The notes under the pieces were generated by a model that saw only the letters and a program-made list of their open reading frames with translations, did not search any database and had not been told where the DNA came from. The translations under genes and the position numbers were made by a program. Of a stretch of 59,122 nucleotides of DNA, positions 11,895-54,763 are shown piece after piece (the first letter of the stretch is position 1; each line of letters begins with the position of its first letter). The DNA is taken from positions 1 through 59,122 of the forward strand of contig JAGCXA010000033.1 of NCBI GenBank assembly GCA_017961575.1, in the 5' to 3' direction. This DNA is from Clostridia bacterium. GTDB taxonomy: Bacteria; Bacillota; Clostridia; Oscillospirales; CAG-272.

Positions 11895-11944
11895 GCGAAG
11901 CGGGACTGTGACCGGGCGTTTTTCGAGTGAACCGGTCATAGTAT

Positions 11945-12092
11945 CCGCGCGCCGGTTTTCCGGCGCGCGGCACTTCACTTTTGCCGAAGGCAAAAACATC
12001 ACGATCGCCGGCGCTCCGTTTCGGAGTACCGGCGATCACTTCACTTTGCGCTCCTGCGCAAAACTTCACTTCGTTCGCGCCCGCGCGGACGA
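11945..12092. repeat. Hairpin array A (ACTTCACT-type spacers)
   Basis: Five short palindromes follow one another between convergent hpf and asnS. They are CCGCGCGCCGG-tttt (11945-11970), TTTGCC-gaa (11980-11994), a 13-bp interrupted stem (12004-12036), TTGCGC-tcct (12046-12061) and an imperfect one at 12070-12092. The gaps are 9-base words: CACTTCACT, AACATCACG, CACTTCACT and AACTTCACT. Stem sequences are unrelated to each other while the spacers are conserved. No T-runs follow the stems, so these are not simple terminators. Confidence 0.75.
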
Positions 12093-15810: not shown

Positions 15811-15980
15811 AAGTTATGATTTTGCCTGCGGCAAAAGTGATGAGTTCGGCTGCCGCCGAACGTTATGATATGATCGCCGGTTACTTTCAACGTGCCGTCG
15901 GGCACTCATCACGTCGCGCAGCGACTCATAACTCTTAACTCGCCGCAGGCGATCATAACGGATCCGGCGGCGCCGGATCC
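15811..15980. repeat. Hairpin array B (TCATAACT-type spacers)
   Basis: Six palindromes: TTTTGCC-tgc (15820-15836), GTTCGGC-tgcc (15844-15861), GTGCC-gtcg (15892-15905), GTCGC-gca (15913-15925), CGCC-gca (15941-15951) and GGATCCGGC-ggc (15960-15980). Spacers in the left half read GTTATGA and in the right half TCATAAC, its complement. The whole array is therefore itself an inverted repeat around 15862-15891. It is homologous to array C at 19022. Confidence 0.78.
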
Positions 15981-15997
15981 GTCCCGCCGTTCTTCGT

Positions 15998-16963
15998 TTA
16001 TTCTTGGATCCGGATCTTCACGTCCCCGGTGTGCGTCGTCGCCTTGAACGCGCCGCCCGCCGGATCGTGCTCCGGCACTTTCACGTCTCCGGTGCGCGAC
16101 GAAACGGTGTAGAGTTTCCCGGTGCGGATCGTTCCCTCCACGTCGCCGGTATCGGTCTTGATCTCGTAGTTCGCCGCGTCGCAGCGGTCGAACTCGACGT
16201 CTCCCGTGTCGGTTTCGATCTTCGCGTCGCCCGTTCCGACGACACGCTTTAAGATCACGTCCCCGGTGTTGGTTTCGACCGTCAGAGCCGCGCACGAAAC
16301 GTCGGTCATCTTCACCTTTCCGGTGTCGCTCTCGACCGACAGATCGCCGCACGAAACGCCGTTCACCTTGATGTCTCCGGTGTCGGTCTCGATCCCGACG
16401 GCGCCGGGGGTCGAAGACGAGAAGACCACGTCCCCGGTGTCGGTCTCAATATTGACGGTCGCGGGAGAGCCGCCCGCAAGCGCCACGTCGCCGGTGTCGG
16501 TCTTGATCTTCACCGTGCCGAACGTGACCGTCTCGGGGACGTTCACGTCGCCGGTGTCGGTTTCCAGGTTCAAAGCGGCGTACTCCCCCGCGGGAAGATA
16601 GATCTTGATCTTCGGGGTCTTGGAAATGATCGTGATCCGATCGTACCACTTCCGCTGATCGGTCCCGTTGACCGTCAGGCGCCCGCTTTCAAGCGCGACG
16701 GTATGCGGCTGTTTTTCGTCCTCGTAACATTCGACCCGGGCTTCCCCGTCCTCGGCGACGAAAAACGTCACGTCGGCGGTCTGGACGTTGATCCCGACCT
16801 GCTCGACGGTTTCGGTGATCGGATAGGTCTTGGTCTCCATTTTCCCCGTGCCGATCCGTCCGGCGTCAAATCCGGTGACGGCGAACGCGACGAGCGTCAG
16901 TACCGCCCCCGCGATCACCAAAGCCAGCGCGATCCCGATGATGATTTTAAGCGACTTTGTCAT
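15998..16963 (-). CDS. DUF4097 beta-solenoid membrane-anchored protein
   Basis: An N-terminal membrane segment (IIIGIALALVIAGAVLTLVAFAV) anchors an extracytoplasmic domain. The domain is built from about ten repeats of the form (I/L)ETDTGDV, one per ~20 residues, which is the right-handed beta-helix pattern of DUF4097. The repeats are also visible at DNA level. It overlaps the DUF1700 gene by 17 bases and has an AAGGAGA site. The padR-DUF1700-DUF4097 order is a recurring envelope-stress-type operon in Bacillota; the ligand is unknown. Confidence 0.9.
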   Translation of the reverse strand: MTKSLKIIIGIALALVIAGAVLTLVAFAVTGFDAGRIGTGKMETKTYPITETVEQVGINVQTADVTFFVAEDGEARVECYEDEKQPHTVALESGRLTVNGTDQRKWYDRITIISKTPKIKIYLPAGEYAALNLETDTGDVNVPETVTFGTVKIKTDTGDVALAGGSPATVNIETDTGDVVFSSSTPGAVGIETDTGDIKVNGVSCGDLSVESDTGKVKMTDVSCAALTVETNTGDVILKRVVGTGDAKIETDTGDVEFDRCDAANYEIKTDTGDVEGTIRTGKLYTVSSRTGDVKVPEHDPAGGAFKATTHTGDVKIRIQE

Positions 16964-17546
16964 TGTTGTTCTCCTTCCGTTTCAACCAACCGAAAAGTTT
17001 GCGCAGGATCCACGCGATCCCGCGACCGAGCGCCTTCGTCACGGCGACCGCCCCGAAAAAGAGCAGGATCGCAAACCCGCCCGATACGAGCGCCACGCCG
17101 AGCGTGAGGAGCGCCGTCGTCAACTGCCCCGTGAAGAGCAGGACGAAGAAAGAGCCGACCCCGCCGACAGCCGCCGCCGCCAGCGACAGTTCGATCGCCC
17201 AGAGCGCGACGAAAAGCGAGAAGATCACCGACGCGACGGTGATGAAAACCGAGAGCAGGATCGGGAGCCAGACCGGAAACCCGAGCACGAGAAGAAGGAT
17301 CAGCCCGACCTTTCCGCCGTTTCCGCTCTTCGGGGGCGCCGACGCGACCGAGGGTCGGTCGGCAAGTATCTGCGCGACGATCCCGTCGACCGTCCCGACG
17401 CCCGCGACGGCTTCCTCCTCCGGGATCCCCTCTTCGATGCGGTCGTCGATCATCTCGCGGTAGAAGTTCACCCGCTCCTCGCGTTCCCCCCGCGGCAGGC
17501 GCGACAGCCCCCGCGAGAGCGCGGTGAGAAATTCTTTTTTCTTCAT
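16947..17546 (-). CDS. DUF1700 (HAAS-domain) membrane protein
   Basis: The N-terminal HAAS signaling domain (LTALSRGLSRLPRGEREERVNFYREMIDDRIEEG-like region, residues 5-40) is followed by four or five hydrophobic segments and a basic tail. Start 17546 has GGGAGG 9 bases upstream. ATGA overlap with padR makes them co-translated. HAAS proteins act between PadR-type regulators and membrane effectors; the exact role is not established. Confidence 0.88.
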   Translation of the reverse strand: MKKKEFLTALSRGLSRLPRGEREERVNFYREMIDDRIEEGIPEEEAVAGVGTVDGIVAQILADRPSVASAPPKSGNGGKVGLILLLVLGFPVWLPILLSVFITVASVIFSLFVALWAIELSLAAAAVGGVGSFFVLLFTGQLTTALLTLGVALVSGGFAILLFFGAVAVTKALGRGIAWILRKLFGWLKRKENNNDKVA

Positions 17547-17860
17547 TTTCCGTTTTCCTCCCTGATGACGAAACGGTACACCGTCATCATCTCTTTCCAT
17601 TCCTCCCGGAACTCGGCGAGCCGCGCCCGTCCCCTCTCGGTGATCCGGTAATACTTGCGGAGCCGTCCGTCGTGTTCCGCCGTCCGCACCGTCAGCATCC
17701 CCGCCGTTTCCAGGCGTTTCAGGATGGTATAGAGGGTCGATTCCGACATTTCAAGATACGGCTTCATCTCCTTGATGATCCGATAGCCGTAGGACTCGCC
17801 GTCCTGGATCGCGGCAAGCACGCACACGTCGAGCAGCCCGCGTTTCAGTTGAATATCCAT
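17543..17860 (-). CDS. PadR-family transcriptional regulator
   Basis: A 105-residue winged helix: LLDVCVLAAIQDGESYGYRIIKEM begins the domain, then STLYTILKRLETAGMLTV is the recognition helix and wing, then RLRKYYRITERGRARL. The length is that of the short PadR-s2 class lacking the long C-terminal helix bundle. It is first gene of its operon. An inverted repeat over its own -10 suggests autorepression. Confidence 0.95.
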   Translation of the reverse strand: MDIQLKRGLLDVCVLAAIQDGESYGYRIIKEMKPYLEMSESTLYTILKRLETAGMLTVRTAEHDGRLRKYYRITERGRARLAEFREEWKEMMTVYRFVIREENGK

Positions 17861-17871
17861 TCCATACCTCC

Positions 17872-17898
17872 CTTCGTGGAATACATCATATCACGAAG
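17872..17898. promoter_or_regulatory. Candidate PadR operator
   Basis: CTTCGTG (17872-17878) and CACGAAG (17892-17898) form a perfect 7-bp inverted repeat with 13 bases between. It covers the -10 and start of transcription of the padR operon. The position fits autoregulation; the sequence differs from the ATGT-N8-ACAT form common in this family. Confidence 0.5.
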
Positions 17899-17913
17899 TA
17901 TTGCGTTTGTCAA
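17885..17913 (-). promoter_or_regulatory. Sigma-A promoter of the padR operon
   Basis: TTGACA (17908-17913) and TATGAT (17885-17890) on the minus strand, 17-base spacer. Confidence 0.85.
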
Positions 17914-17966
17914 GAGGAAACCGAAAAAAAACGAAAAAAACGGCGGACGCTCGTTTTCCCCACGGG

Positions 17967-17994
17967 TTGATTGCTTTTTCCCTGTTTTTATGAT
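17967..17994 (+). promoter_or_regulatory. Sigma-A promoter of the hydrolase gene
   Basis: TTGATT (17967-17972) and TATGAT (17989-17994), 16-base spacer, about 40 bases before the start codon. Confidence 0.65.
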
Positions 17995-18035
17995 ATACTG
18001 ATGAAAACGAAAACTGGCGCCGGAGGATCGAAAAT

Positions 18036-18965
18036 ATGGGCTTCATCGCAAACAAATACCGCAAGCAGCTGCTCTGCCGCTACGACAAGGACGGGTACAC
18101 GCCCTACCTTTCGGCGTCGGATTTTCCGGGACTGACCGTTGACGCGGGGTCGTTCGTCAACTCCGCCGGGGTCGAGGTCGCGTTCTTCCGCTACCGCTAC
18201 GGGGACTACGATCCCGAAAAACTCGTCGTCTTCTGCCACGGTCTCGGCGCCGGACACACGGCGTATCTTGCCGAGATCGAATACCTCTGCCACAACGGTT
18301 TGCAGGTGCTGACCCTCGACTACACCGGGTGCGACAAGTCGGGGGGCGACGGGATGCTCTCGGTCAACCGTCCGAGCCGGGACGTCCTCGAACTGCTCGA
18401 CTTTATGAAGCCGACCGAAGAGGTGAGCGTCGTCGGACATTCGCTCGGCGGCTATACCGCGCTGAACGTGATCCGGATGTGCGATCCGATCAAACGCGCG
18501 GTGATCCTCTCGGGCTTCCTTCAATCGAGGAAGATGCTCGGGCAGTTCATCAAGAGCCGCTTGGTCAACGCGATCGTCGACCGCGCCGAAAGGAAGTGCG
18601 ACCCCGAGATCGCGCGCGCCGACAACGCCGCGTATCTGAAAAGCACGACCGACCGCCTGCTCTTCATCGCCTCAACGGACGATCCGACGGTTCCCTACTC
18701 GATCGGCGCCGGGCTGGCGCAGACGCTCGGCAACGACAACCTCTCGTTTCTGACCGTCGAGAACAAAAAACACAACCCGAACTACACCCCCGAGGCCCTC
18801 GCCTTTATGCAGGAGTCGTTCGGGACCTTCAACCGGCTCGTCGCCGAGGGCAAACTCCAAACCCTCGAAGAAAAGCGGGCGTTCTTTTCCGACAGACCCG
18901 CGTCGAAAATGACGGTGCAGGACGACGCCGTGATGGGCGAGGTCGTGCGGTTCATAAAAGGGTAA
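18036..18965 (+). CDS. Alpha/beta hydrolase
   Basis: A soluble 309-residue hydrolase. LVVFCHGLGAGH is the oxyanion strand, GHSLGGYT the nucleophile elbow (Ser near residue 136), FIASTDDPTVP the acid region and KKHNPNYT the probable catalytic His. No signal peptide. The substrate cannot be told; the family includes esterases and acyl-CoA hydrolases. Start has GGAGG 10 bases upstream. Monocistronic. Confidence 0.88.
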   Translation: MGFIANKYRKQLLCRYDKDGYTPYLSASDFPGLTVDAGSFVNSAGVEVAFFRYRYGDYDPEKLVVFCHGLGAGHTAYLAEIEYLCHNGLQVLTLDYTGCDKSGGDGMLSVNRPSRDVLELLDFMKPTEEVSVVGHSLGGYTALNVIRMCDPIKRAVILSGFLQSRKMLGQFIKSRLVNAIVDRAERKCDPEIARADNAAYLKSTTDRLLFIASTDDPTVPYSIGAGLAQTLGNDNLSFLTVENKKHNPNYTPEALAFMQESFGTFNRLVAEGKLQTLEEKRAFFSDRPASKMTVQDDAVMGEVVRFIKG

Positions 18966-18977
18966 AAAGAAAAAAAA

Positions 18978-19015
18978 CCGGGTGGCTCGCCGAAAGACGA
19001 GCCACCCGGCTTTTT
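18978..19015 (+). terminator. Intrinsic terminator of the hydrolase gene
   Basis: A 12-bp stem (18978-18989 with 18998-19009) with an 8-base loop, T-run after and A-run before, so it may also stop guaA read-through. Confidence 0.9.
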
Positions 19016-19021
19016 AGTTTA

Positions 19022-19192
19022 GAGTTATGATTTCGCCTCCGGCGAAAGTTATGGGTTCGGCTTGCGCCGAACGTTATGATATGATCGCCGGTTACTTCCA
19101 ACGTGCCGTCAGGCACTCATAACTGCGCGAAGCGCACCATAACTCATAACTCGCCGGAGGCGATCATAACTGCAAAACGCGTTGCGTTTTGC
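19022..19192. repeat. Hairpin array C (TCATAACT-type spacers)
   Basis: Six palindromes: TTTCGCC-tcc (19031-19047), GTTCGGC-ttgc (19055-19072), GTGCC-gtca (19103-19116), GCGC-gaa (19125-19135), CGCC-gga (19152-19162) and GCAAAACGC-gtt (19172-19192). Spacers are GTTATGA-type on the left and TCATAACT-type on the right. The 30-base centre (19073-19102) differs from that of array B at a single position. The last palindrome abuts the guaA stop codon. Confidence 0.8.
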
Positions 19193-20173
19193 TTATTCCC
19201 ACTCGATCGTAGCGACCGGCTTCGGCGAAAGATCGTACAGCACGCGGTTCACGCCCTTGACTTCGGCGAGGATCCGGTCGACGATGTGTTTCAGGAGCGG
19301 GTAGGGGATTTCCTCGATGGTGGCGCTGGTCGCGTCGACCGAGTTGACCGCACGGATGATGACCGGCCATGCCCAGGTGCGCTTGTTGTCCTTGATCCCG
19401 GTGGAGCGGTAGTCGGGAACGGTGGTGAAGTACTGCCACACCTTGCCGGCGAGCCCGTTCTTCTCGAACTCCTCGCGGAGGATGGCGTCGGATTCGCGCA
19501 CCGCTTCGAGGCGGTCGCGGGTGATGGCGCCGGTGCAGCGCACGCCGAGTCCGGGACCCGGGAAGGGCTGACGGTTGACCATCCCGTCGGGAAGCCCCAG
19601 TTCCTTGCCCACGCAGCGCACTTCGTCCTTGTAGAGGAACTTGACGGGTTCGACGAGCTCGAATTGCAGATCGGCGGGAAGTCCGCCGACGTTGTGATGC
19701 GCCTTCACGCCGTCGCTTTCGAGGATGTCGGGGTAGATGGTTCCCTGTCCGAGATACTTGATCCCCTCCTGCTTTCTCGCCTCTTCCTCGAAGACGCGGA
19801 TGAACTCGGCGCCGATGATCTTGCGCTTCTGTTCGGGATCGCTGACGCCCGCCAGTTTATCGAGGAAGCGGTCGACGGCGTCGACGTAGACGAGGTTGGC
19901 GTTGAGCTGATCGCGGAAAACGCGGACCACCTGCTCGGGTTCGCCCTTACGGAGCAGACCGTGGTTGACGTGCACGCAGACGAGGTTCCGTCCGATCGCG
20001 CGGATCAGGAGCGCGGCGCAAACCGAGGAATCGACCCCGCCGGACAGGGCGAGCAGACACTTCCCGTCCCCGATCTGTTCTTTGAGTGCGGCGACCTGTT
20101 CGTCGATAAACGCCTTGGCGAGTTCGGGGGTGTTGATGCGTTTCATGGTTGCGGGACGGACGTTGTTCTGCAT
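19193..20173 (-). CDS. guaA: GMP synthase ATP-pyrophosphatase subunit (no glutaminase domain)
   Basis: Amidates XMP to GMP. The ~326 residues contain the N-type ATP pyrophosphatase domain (LSGGVDSS at residues 43-50, HVNHGLLRKGE) and the C-terminal dimerisation domain (RQPFPGPGLGVR, ending KPVATIEWE). The class I glutamine amidotransferase domain normally fused at the N-terminus is absent. The start at 20173 has GGAGG 8 bases upstream; the longer in-frame reading (to 20347) is not glutaminase-like. This matches archaeal GuaAb; a separate GuaAa or free ammonia would be needed. Confidence 0.94.
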   Translation of the reverse strand: MQNNVRPATMKRINTPELAKAFIDEQVAALKEQIGDGKCLLALSGGVDSSVCAALLIRAIGRNLVCVHVNHGLLRKGEPEQVVRVFRDQLNANLVYVDAVDRFLDKLAGVSDPEQKRKIIGAEFIRVFEEEARKQEGIKYLGQGTIYPDILESDGVKAHHNVGGLPADLQFELVEPVKFLYKDEVRCVGKELGLPDGMVNRQPFPGPGLGVRCTGAITRDRLEAVRESDAILREEFEKNGLAGKVWQYFTTVPDYRSTGIKDNKRTWAWPVIIRAVNSVDATSATIEEIPYPLLKHIVDRILAEVKGVNRVLYDLSPKPVATIEWE

Positions 20174-20208
20174 GGGCTGTTCCTCCAATATTATTGATCT
20201 CGGGACCG

Positions 20209-20243
20209 AAAAAAGGCGGGGCGGAACCAAGCCGGGTTCCGCC
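20209..20243 (-). promoter_or_regulatory. guaA: Attenuator-like terminator in the guaA leader
   Basis: Between promoter and start codon, a 9-bp stem (20235-20243 with 20220-20228) can extend through a bulge to a T6 tract (complement of 20209-20214). It would end transcription before guaA. Upstream leader is only about 35 bases, too short for a purine aptamer. A CCGGG word upstream could pair with the CCCGG in the stem as an antiterminator. Confidence 0.55.
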
Positions 20244-20284
20244 GCATATCCTTGTTTCGGGAGCCCCGGAAAAAAGATGGGATT

Positions 20285-20313
20285 ATTATACATCATCCGA
20301 CGGGAAAATGCAA
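20285..20313 (-). promoter_or_regulatory. guaA: Sigma-A promoter of guaA
   Basis: TTGCAT (20308-20313) and TATAAT (20285-20290) on the minus strand, 17-base spacer; leader about 105 bases. Confidence 0.82.
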
Positions 20314-20363
20314 GAGGTTGGGCGAAGATTTTACTTTTTTTTGACAAGGGGGAAAAACCGAAA

Positions 20364-54558: not shown

Positions 54559-54601
54559 TGAGTTCACCTCCGTTTGGATTATTCGCTAAGAGGGAAGAAA
54601 A

Positions 54602-54728
54602 GAAAAAATCCTTTCCCCACAAGACGGGAAAGGACGAATGCACGATAAACGCAAAGGTTTCAGCGTCGATTCTTCTCTCCTCGGCAGGGTGGCTTTCGCT
54701 TTTACTGTAACCTGCTGTCTTAGGAACG
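54602..54728 (-). ncRNA. Ribosomal protein L10 leader
   Basis: On the minus strand the leader reads AAGACAGCAGGTTACAG and later CCCTGCCGAGGAGAG, the two conserved strands of the L10-leader fold. A TCCTTTCCC/GGGAAAGGA stem (54626-54634 with 54609-54617) with a T6 run follows, acting as attenuator. It fits the Bacillota L10 leader by which L10-L12 represses its own transcript. Confidence 0.82.
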
Positions 54729-54734
54729 GGCACT

Positions 54735-54763
54735 ATTATAGCGTACCGCGCCGGGTTTGTCAA
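54735..54763 (-). promoter_or_regulatory. rplJ: Consensus sigma-A promoter of rplJL
   Basis: TTGACA (54758-54763) and TATAAT (54735-54740) on the minus strand, 17-base spacer. Confidence 0.93.

Follow-up and report, generated by a model that had tools for sequence, protein, structure and literature searches.

Seven-base words and palindromic hairpin arrays in a Clostridia genome: probable gene-less copies of a mobile element family with an S23 gene

Introduction

Arrays B (15811–15980) and C (19022–19192) are two palindromic hairpin arrays in a 59,122-nucleotide contig of a Clostridia bacterium (GenBank JAGCXA010000033.1, assembly GCA_017961575.1), referred to here as the window. They are probably solo, gene-less copies of a mobile family in whose complete form a palindromic hairpin array with a 7-base word is followed by an S23 gene, the product of which (PF05635 / TIGR02436) is known from intervening sequences (IVSs) of 23S rRNA; this reading includes movement of the element as a single strand presented by the S23 protein. 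The identification of the arrays as mobile elements is made with good confidence, and the single-stranded mode of movement is the doubtful part of the reading. Each element family has its own 7-base word. S23 is a small four-helix-bundle protein related to the Avd protein of diversity-generating retroelements (DGRs), and to our knowledge it has no nuclease motif. The arrays are a variant of the S23/IVS kind that was previously undescribed in the literature searched; among publications on S23 or four-helix-bundle proteins with heptamers or IVSs only PMC4990558 was directly relevant, a weak absence since most subscription journals and bioRxiv lay outside the search. The arrays may point to a type of mobile element that is widespread and little understood. 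They link a number of repeat families that had lacked an explanation, and they present covarying stems for which an RNA function need not be the cause. They also give the S23 protein an apparent substrate, the 7-base word beside each gene, and because this word can be read from the adjoining DNA, the binding specificity of S23 is directly testable.

S23 genes beside the arrays and their words

Arrays B and C have one common architecture in which 7-base words join hairpins, GTTATGA on the left and TCATAAC on the right, and they are solo copies in that no S23 gene stands beside either. Relatives were sought in a comparison set of 59 genomes, with the bacterium's own genome (G000, 94% complete) included in all counts; many loci and elements come from related metagenome-assembled genomes (MAGs), so the counts do not represent independent events. 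From the related loci, 127 unique full elements were parsed. A PF05635 match adjoins 18 of them, starting just past the left end of the element and reading away from it, with the start of the gene 44–99 nt from the conserved core of the element in 16 of the 18; the other two are tandem cases, with distances of 221 and 248 nt. Some of the S23 matches are incomplete and a number of contigs break off too soon, which makes 18 of 127 a lower bound. Four S23-bearing loci of the bacterium's order (L235, L249, L286, and L287) have the same word as arrays B and C.

PF05635 matches are present in 47 of the 59 genomes, with up to seven per genome. Ninety S23 loci of the order, part of a longer list, were scored and 51 were viewed by eye. 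Most of these genes stand after arrays of a locus-specific 7-base word, either hairpin-spaced or plain, and both array halves are usually upstream of the gene. The words differ by group and include ATATAAC, ATATCAC, ATATCGC, ACTTCAC, ATTTCAT, CAATTCA, and others. A 7-mer recurs at least eight times in the 300 bp upstream of 68 of 85 S23 genes (5 of the 90 loci, with less than 150 bp upstream, were left out) compared with 78 of 393 control genes (p = 3.6e-26); since that many controls also reach eight, the recurrence marks an excess and is not diagnostic for single loci. Downstream of the genes the 7-mer excess is weak (p = 0.025).

The word also follows the protein. Over 60 loci, the correlation between word and S23 protein gave a Mantel r of 0.445, a value reached by none of 2000 permutations; 26 of 86 loci were left out of this test, having no 7-mer in at least four exact copies or containing a stop. 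Mean word similarity is 5.9 of 7 positions above 75% protein identity and 3.3 below 50%. Common descent of the neighbouring DNA makes up part of this correlation, which therefore establishes coupling of word and protein rather than binding. Of the two S23 genes in the bacterium's own genome, one goes with the word ATATAAC and the other with ATATCGA. The latter gene (L406, G000:C43:13998-14225), which has an ATATCGA-type array and is interrupted by an in-frame stop, has one of the genome's five TCATAAC elements at a distance of about 1.9 kb. In the locus of another S23 gene, two tandem c-di-GMP-I riboswitches are found (L297:386-576).

Copies and insertion sites

The likeness of B and C exceeds chance. 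The bacterium's own genome holds five full copies of the element: with array B as the query, blastn matches four further full or near-full copies, array C among them (E values of 1.6e-48 to 5.9e-32). With array C as the query, matches are found in 24 of the 59 genomes, and a covariance model matches 31 of them. A pattern scan of named genomes returned at least 116 stretches; among the 80 matches listed, two contigs belong to a single uncultured bacterium and the others to MAGs titled Clostridia (mostly from the ruminant gut), Oscillospiraceae, or Ruminococcus. A phage or viral origin was rejected, as the exact core pattern had no match in viral contigs. The relative G026 has 27 covariance-model matches, and in the 19 distinct amplified copies that were viewed the right half is common to all and 17 continue into the same outer hairpin. 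These amplified right halves (L068-L085 and L087) lie within a mosaic of other repeats, including GAGGGACTTTTTTGCAAAAAAGTCCCTC, similar to bacterial interspersed mosaic elements (BIMEs). A transposase was sought for the amplified G026 repeats, and no long shared reading frame was found upstream of the six loci, out of eight, in which the key sequence was present.

At least one copy was most likely inserted, judging from the intergenic gap that separates the second guaA from pyrG; both gene families were confirmed in G000. This gap measures 219 nt with the element in G000 and 22 nt in the close relative G021, whose flanks are identical to those of G000 at 139 of 152 and 382 of 400 positions. 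The gap is about 9 nt in G003, 12 nt in G050, and 32 nt in G038; of twelve further guaA ends compared, three have a pyrG-like start adjoining, seven have other sequence, and two had no end found. The short gaps in these four relatives point to the element having been gained, most likely, in the G000 line. A second site, on contig C67, is empty in G021. At a third, on contig C43, the corresponding intergenic position in G021 is occupied by an array with a different word, ATATCAT, and an S23 gene of G021 (L291) has ATATCAT as its word. The guaA gene beside array C was discarded as an empty-site comparison, because G021 has no array C there but the sequence beyond differs.

The elements are frequently found in structured RNA genes and behind the 3' ends of genes and tRNAs. 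When right neighbours were assigned by a simple reading-frame rule, 80 of 102 point their 3' end at the element (25 of the 127 elements have no assigned neighbour), and the 3' end of a same-strand tRNA lies 190–326 bp before the S23 gene in 25 of 79 loci, with 26 tRNAs observed and 2.6 expected. Such positions, and the strong outer hairpin that many gene ends have, would also suit arrays that terminate transcription or that bind proteins as BIME-like intergenic repeats, S23 being a passenger. That explanation appears improbable, since it does not account for a word that changes with the S23 protein or for heptamers that flank S23 genes in unrelated phyla and settings, rRNA included.

REPIN/RAYT systems likewise consist of inverted hairpin units with a constant word that are intergenic and dispersed, and arrays B and C, each with a pair of inverted hairpin units and a word that is conserved, resemble them; the initial annotation had proposed a REPIN- or MITE-like element or a structured RNA, and a search for a linked RAYT-type or other transposase. 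The likeness does not extend to the protein. The gene beside the arrays encodes S23, there is no linked Y1 gene, and the word is 7 nt long and specific to the family. No Y1_Tnp (PF01797) match is found in the bacterium's own genome, and across the set the domain occurs in 9 of the 31 genomes that have elements and in 10 of the 28 that lack them (Fisher p = 0.78; the flanks of the Y1 genes were not inspected). Movement by a RAYT (IS200/IS605-type Y1) transposase is thus very improbable, and this transposase was rejected as the partner of the arrays.

S23 loci beyond the order and rRNA intervening sequences

Heptamers accompany S23 genes far outside the order. A plasmid set (21 of 25 records taken in, with H2, H4, H21, and H22 left out) has S23 matches in Cyanobacteriota, Bacteroidota, Spirochaetota, Chloroflexota, and one Clostridia species. 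A second set comprises 149 genomes of the bacterium's own phylum (presumably Bacillota), of which 29 have matches and 25 loci were scored. Period and inverted-repeat scoring left out the phage-labelled L352, L389-L391 (below the PF05635 cut-off), 4 of the 90 order loci with short flanks, and further phylum matches that yielded no locus. Inverted heptamer repeats across the S23 gene score at least 15 in 17 of 21 plasmid loci and 14 of 25 phylum loci, compared with 23 of 404 and 14 of 482 shuffled partners, respectively. A period of 7 gives 21.8 of 28 matches upstream and 21.7 downstream in the plasmid loci, and 18.9 and 19.8 in the phylum loci; the other periods scanned, from 4 to 12, give 11.6–13.4 in both sets.

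Six loci chosen by eye were compared with Rfam; five, from the phylum set, lie inside 23S rRNA as IVSs and one lies inside RNase P RNA. L382 appears from its sequence to be a second RNase P case. The 23S IVS and RNase P RNA insertions bear the same kind of heptamers. In the available passages of PMC4990558, tandem GACAGAT heptamers precede the S23 open reading frame (ORF) of the Coxiella IVS, the IVS RNA is excised from rRNA by RNase III, and the origin and function of rRNA IVSs and of the S23 protein are described as unclear. The IVS with its S23 ORF thus resembles the arrays in its protein family, its inverted repeats, and the heptamers before the ORF (PMC4990558, as far as available). The inverted heptamers around S23 beyond the order, taken with those of Coxiella, indicate that the arrays, the IVSs, and the heptamer-flanked S23 genes belong together. 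In contrast to IVSs, the TCATAAC elements stand outside rRNA, exist in many copies, are mostly gene-less, have hairpins between the heptamers, and keep both halves on one side of the gene. An Rfam scan of the window returned a tRNA and an L10 leader only; arrays B and C are intergenic and no rRNA was found in the window, and they are therefore filed as relatives of IVSs and not as IVSs.

Intergenic heptamer repeats are also known from other bacteria, among them the STRR repeats of cyanobacteria. The TAACTGA repeats of Beggiatoaceae, Cyanobacteria, and Bacteroidetes are intergenic 7-base direct repeats whose mechanism is not known according to the available parts of PMC4679880, and S23 genes of cyanobacterial plasmids are bordered by heptamers, for example CCCCAAT and TAATTCG. 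The main text of PMC4679880, as far as available, contains no occurrence of S23 or helix bundle and does not connect the TAACTGA repeats with S23.

An RNA intermediate would also be in keeping with the insertions found in genes for rRNA and RNase P RNA, and S23 belongs to a four-helix-bundle family like that of the DGR accessory protein Avd. It might accordingly work with a reverse transcriptase (RT) in trans, and weaker PF05635 matches do lie near an RT in G015:C18 and G035:C44, as expected for Avd. Retro-mobility of this kind is nevertheless quite unlikely. Unlike Avd, the S23 genes of these genomes are not associated with an RT: no RVT_1 match was detected in 37 of the 47 S23-bearing genomes, many of which are incomplete, and RT and S23 do not co-occur (p = 0.72). 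An RT as the partner of the element is therefore not supported.

Several plasmid S23 genes lie in or beside restriction, helicase-methylase, DUF1156/Swt1, or cas1-cas2 groups (L348, L345, L350, L351, L354, L364, L359, and L361). Among these, S23 stands between cas2 and cas1 in L359 and L361, between type I restriction genes in L348, and between DUF1156 and Swt1-HEPN genes in L354 and L364. Such defence loci may be an insertion hot spot, or S23 may be a functional part of them. Phage records include S23 in two cases. One of them, L352 (MT835815.1), is an unannotated UNVERIFIED faecal scaffold labelled "Bacteriophage sp." that carries S23 with a GTTATAT/GTGATAT array and is likely a bacterial scaffold or a prophage.

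Structure and covariation of the arrays

In window orientation, the order of parts in both arrays is GTTATGA, hairpin A, word, hairpin B, GTTATGATATGATCGCC, linker, hairpin C, word, hairpin D, two words, hairpin E, TCATAAC, and an outer hairpin, and all features are given on the plus strand. In array B, the left-arm word GTTATGA (15813–15819) is followed by hairpin A (15820–15836; TTTTGCC tgc GGCAAAA, a TNC loop) and hairpin B (15844–15861; GTTCGGC tgcc GCCGAAC). The conserved core GTTATGATATGATCGCC with the linker, which has CAAC at its end, occupies 15862–15891, and TCGCC of the core has the same letters as the 5' arm of hairpin E. Then come hairpin C (15892–15905; GTGCC gtcg GGCAC), hairpin D (15913–15925; GTCGC gca GCGAC, a GNA loop), the double spacer TCATAAC TCTTAAC (15926–15939), and hairpin E (15940–15952; TCGCC gca GGCGA), whose 3' arm can pair with the core as well. 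The final word TCATAAC (15953–15959) leads into the outer hairpin GGATCCGGC ggc GCCGGATCC (15960–15980), close to the 3' end of a minus-strand gene (15998–16963) with weak LiaG-family similarity.

In array C, GTTATGA (19024–19030) is preceded by AGTTTAGA, as in many relatives. It is followed by hairpin A (19031–19047; TTTCGCC tcc GGCGAAA), hairpin B (19055–19072; GTTCGGC ttgc GCCGAAC), the conserved core and linker (19073–19102), hairpin C (19103–19116; GTGCC gtca GGCAC), and hairpin D (19124–19136; TGCGC gaa GCGCA, a C-GAA-G loop). The stretch 19144–19170 comprises TCATAAC, hairpin E (TCGCC gga GGCGA), and TCATAAC, and the outer hairpin GCAAAACGC gtt GCGTTTTGC (19172–19192) lies directly at the stop codon of guaA (19193–20347, minus strand). 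A recount bore out the array coordinates of the initial annotation and its 30-base core with one mismatch between 15862–15891 and 19073–19102. The paired stem changes that it described are likewise real, with TTTTGCC..GGCAAAA in B corresponding to TTTCGCC..GGCGAAA in C, and GTCGC..GCGAC to TGCGC..GCGCA. The flip of the spacer from GTTATGA to TCATAAC and the agreement of the outer loops (tgc/gca in B and tcc/gga in C) are present in the sequence.

The stems covary widely among relatives. RNAalifold on 19 aligned elements gave 32 pairs, 15 of them with at least one two-sided change, and the core is conserved across these 19 elements, which come from several families of the order. Among the 127 elements, slot B holds a hairpin in 110 (21 distinct inner stems), slot C in 119 (23), and slot D in 113 (17). 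Arms were taken at fixed offsets, a choice that works well for slot D alone (99 of 127 elements). Of the 23 distinct arm pairs in slot D, 13 are perfectly complementary compared with a mean of 1.3 for shuffled partners; the corresponding counts for slots B and C are 11 of 61 and 8 of 49, compared with 0.7 each. In 99 of 127 elements the core word agrees with the last hairpin on both of its arms, the combination being TTGCC/GGCAA 69 times and TCGCC/GGCGA 30 times. Of the remaining elements, 22 are unparsed and 6 differ, and in 4 of these 6 the core still matches the 3' arm although the local 5' arm does not. In the reduced copies L027 and L031, viewed by eye, only the core paired with the 3' arm of the last hairpin is kept. 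The initial description thus holds as regards a structured element in dispersed copies, whose stems covary and whose spacers stay constant, with matches in 31 of 59 genomes and the RNAalifold result. Its claim that the element is kept for its folding rather than its sequence stands in part: the stems do covary, but the 7-base word is near-constant within each element and tracks the S23 protein.

Both covariation and uniform words could arise by mutation rather than selection, through template switching in palindromes and through slippage or recombination that homogenises the words. Template switching readily uses perfect stems whose DNA loops are very stable, and 7 of 23 array-bearing guaA ends carry an inverted copy, 10 nt or longer, of the end of that gene, compared with 1 of 31 without arrays (p = 0.008), a test that overstates independence because the 23 ends are related. 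This explanation is rather unlikely; it leaves unexplained the coupling of word and S23, the position before S23 genes, and the conservation of the core in the 19 aligned elements.

The two halves of an element are reverse complements in their words and mostly in their loop types, and not in their stems. Left-half loops are TNC or TNNC in 64 of 110 cases. Right-half loops are GNA or GNNA in 198 of 232 cases compared with 136 of 1641 control hairpins (the copies are related, and the stem limits are 4 and 5 bp), and the closing pair is C-G in 221 of 232. The pyrimidine variants of these loops are not typical of RNA. GNA and GNNA loops form very stable DNA mini-hairpins according to the available part of PMC4686876. 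These stable DNA loops and the RNA-atypical pyrimidine variants make single-stranded DNA, held by hairpins and by S23 on the words, the favoured candidate for the form that would move or serve as a template.

Gut-1 and a possible role as RNA

A sister array with the word ATATAAC (L028) scores 56.8 bits with the Rfam family Gut-1 (RF01706), for which the cut-off is 50, and the match covers half of the array. Gut-1 also matches the S23 leaders of L239, L259, and L265, and in L237 a match lies about 0.57 kb beyond the S23 gene and not in its leader. The TCATAAC arrays differ: B and C have no Gut-1 match at the gathering score, and L001/L002 have none at an E value of 1. Gut-1 matches occur in 46 of the 59 genomes, 38 of them above the cut-off, with up to 49 in one genome, and Gut-1 arrays are present in 42 of 47 S23-positive compared with 4 of 12 S23-negative genomes (p = 0.0002). 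The available passages of PMC2864571 give Gut-1 as a gut noncoding RNA and contain no link to S23. The statement of the initial annotation that no named family was known is superseded by these results, since a sister array matches Gut-1 and those versions that have a gene encode S23, the protein known from rRNA IVSs.

As Gut-1 is an Rfam small RNA family that matches S23 leaders, the arrays might instead act as RNA, either as a structured leader or as a small RNA that regulates S23 or neighbouring genes, with S23 binding the RNA. Arrays before S23 genes do occupy the leader, the 80 of 102 right neighbours whose 3' end faces the element place it in a 3'-UTR position, and the excision of IVS RNA by RNase III (PMC4990558, in its available part) would fit as well. 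This explanation is considered doubtful on several grounds. In the available flanks, 109 of the 127 elements have no S23 match; the halves are reverse complements in their words and mostly in their loop types, so both strands look alike; and the sites differ between close relatives. Tetraloops of the GNYA type (15) match GNRA (12) in frequency, a pattern that differs from stable RNA loops.

Proposed mechanism and its weight

In the proposed mechanism of the mobile S23 family, an S23 protein would bind the words of its own family and would present the element as a single strand of DNA (or RNA) with its hairpins formed. Host replication or repair would then insert the presented strand at hairpin-forming gene ends, and template switching at these ends would leave inverted copies of them. 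Solo copies such as B and C would move in trans through an S23 protein with the same word, either present now or lost. More tentatively, and with somewhat less than even confidence, S23 proteins may be the word-reading factors of a whole bacterial class of mobile elements that have no known nuclease, with 7-base words owned by lineages, arrays that are plain or hairpin-spaced, and insertion at structured gene ends. If so, one class would explain rRNA IVSs, RNase P RNA insertions, the heptamer repeats of cyanobacteria and Beggiatoaceae, Gut-1, and arrays B and C.

Several observations weigh against the interpretation of the arrays as mobile S23 elements. No DNA-cutting or DNA-joining enzyme belongs to the element, and no S23 gene with the word TCATAAC was found in the bacterium's own genome (94% complete), so that B and C may be immobile now. 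In a comparison with miniature inverted-repeat elements of DDE transposons, which are marked by terminal inverted repeats and target duplication, the arms were inverted and no target duplication was seen by eye at the guaA–pyrG or C67 sites. The coupling of word and protein may derive in part from shared descent of the adjoining DNA. TCATAAC-type elements are only weakly associated with S23 genes of any word, being present in 28 of 47 genomes with S23 and 3 of 12 without (p = 0.051). In the order, inverted repeats across S23 score at least 15 in only 12 of 86 loci, and period 7 is only mildly raised, with 14.4 and 14.0 of 28 matches compared with 11.5–13.3 for other periods. Beyond the order, a minority of S23 loci have no clear repeat (for example, L370, L386, and L387). 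Two genomes without a detected S23 gene, G001 and G017 (63–66% complete), hold 22 Gut-1 matches each, and 46 of 110 left-half loops are neither TNC nor TNNC.

Other features of the window

A third array in the window (11915–12062, L007) has the words CACTTCAC/ACATCAC and the hairpins TTTTGCC gaa GGCAAAA and TTTGCGC..GCGCAAA. It stands after a strong GC-rich hairpin and looks like another word family. The ribosomal protein L10 leader (RF00557) returned by the Rfam scan is located at 54594–54742 on the minus strand.

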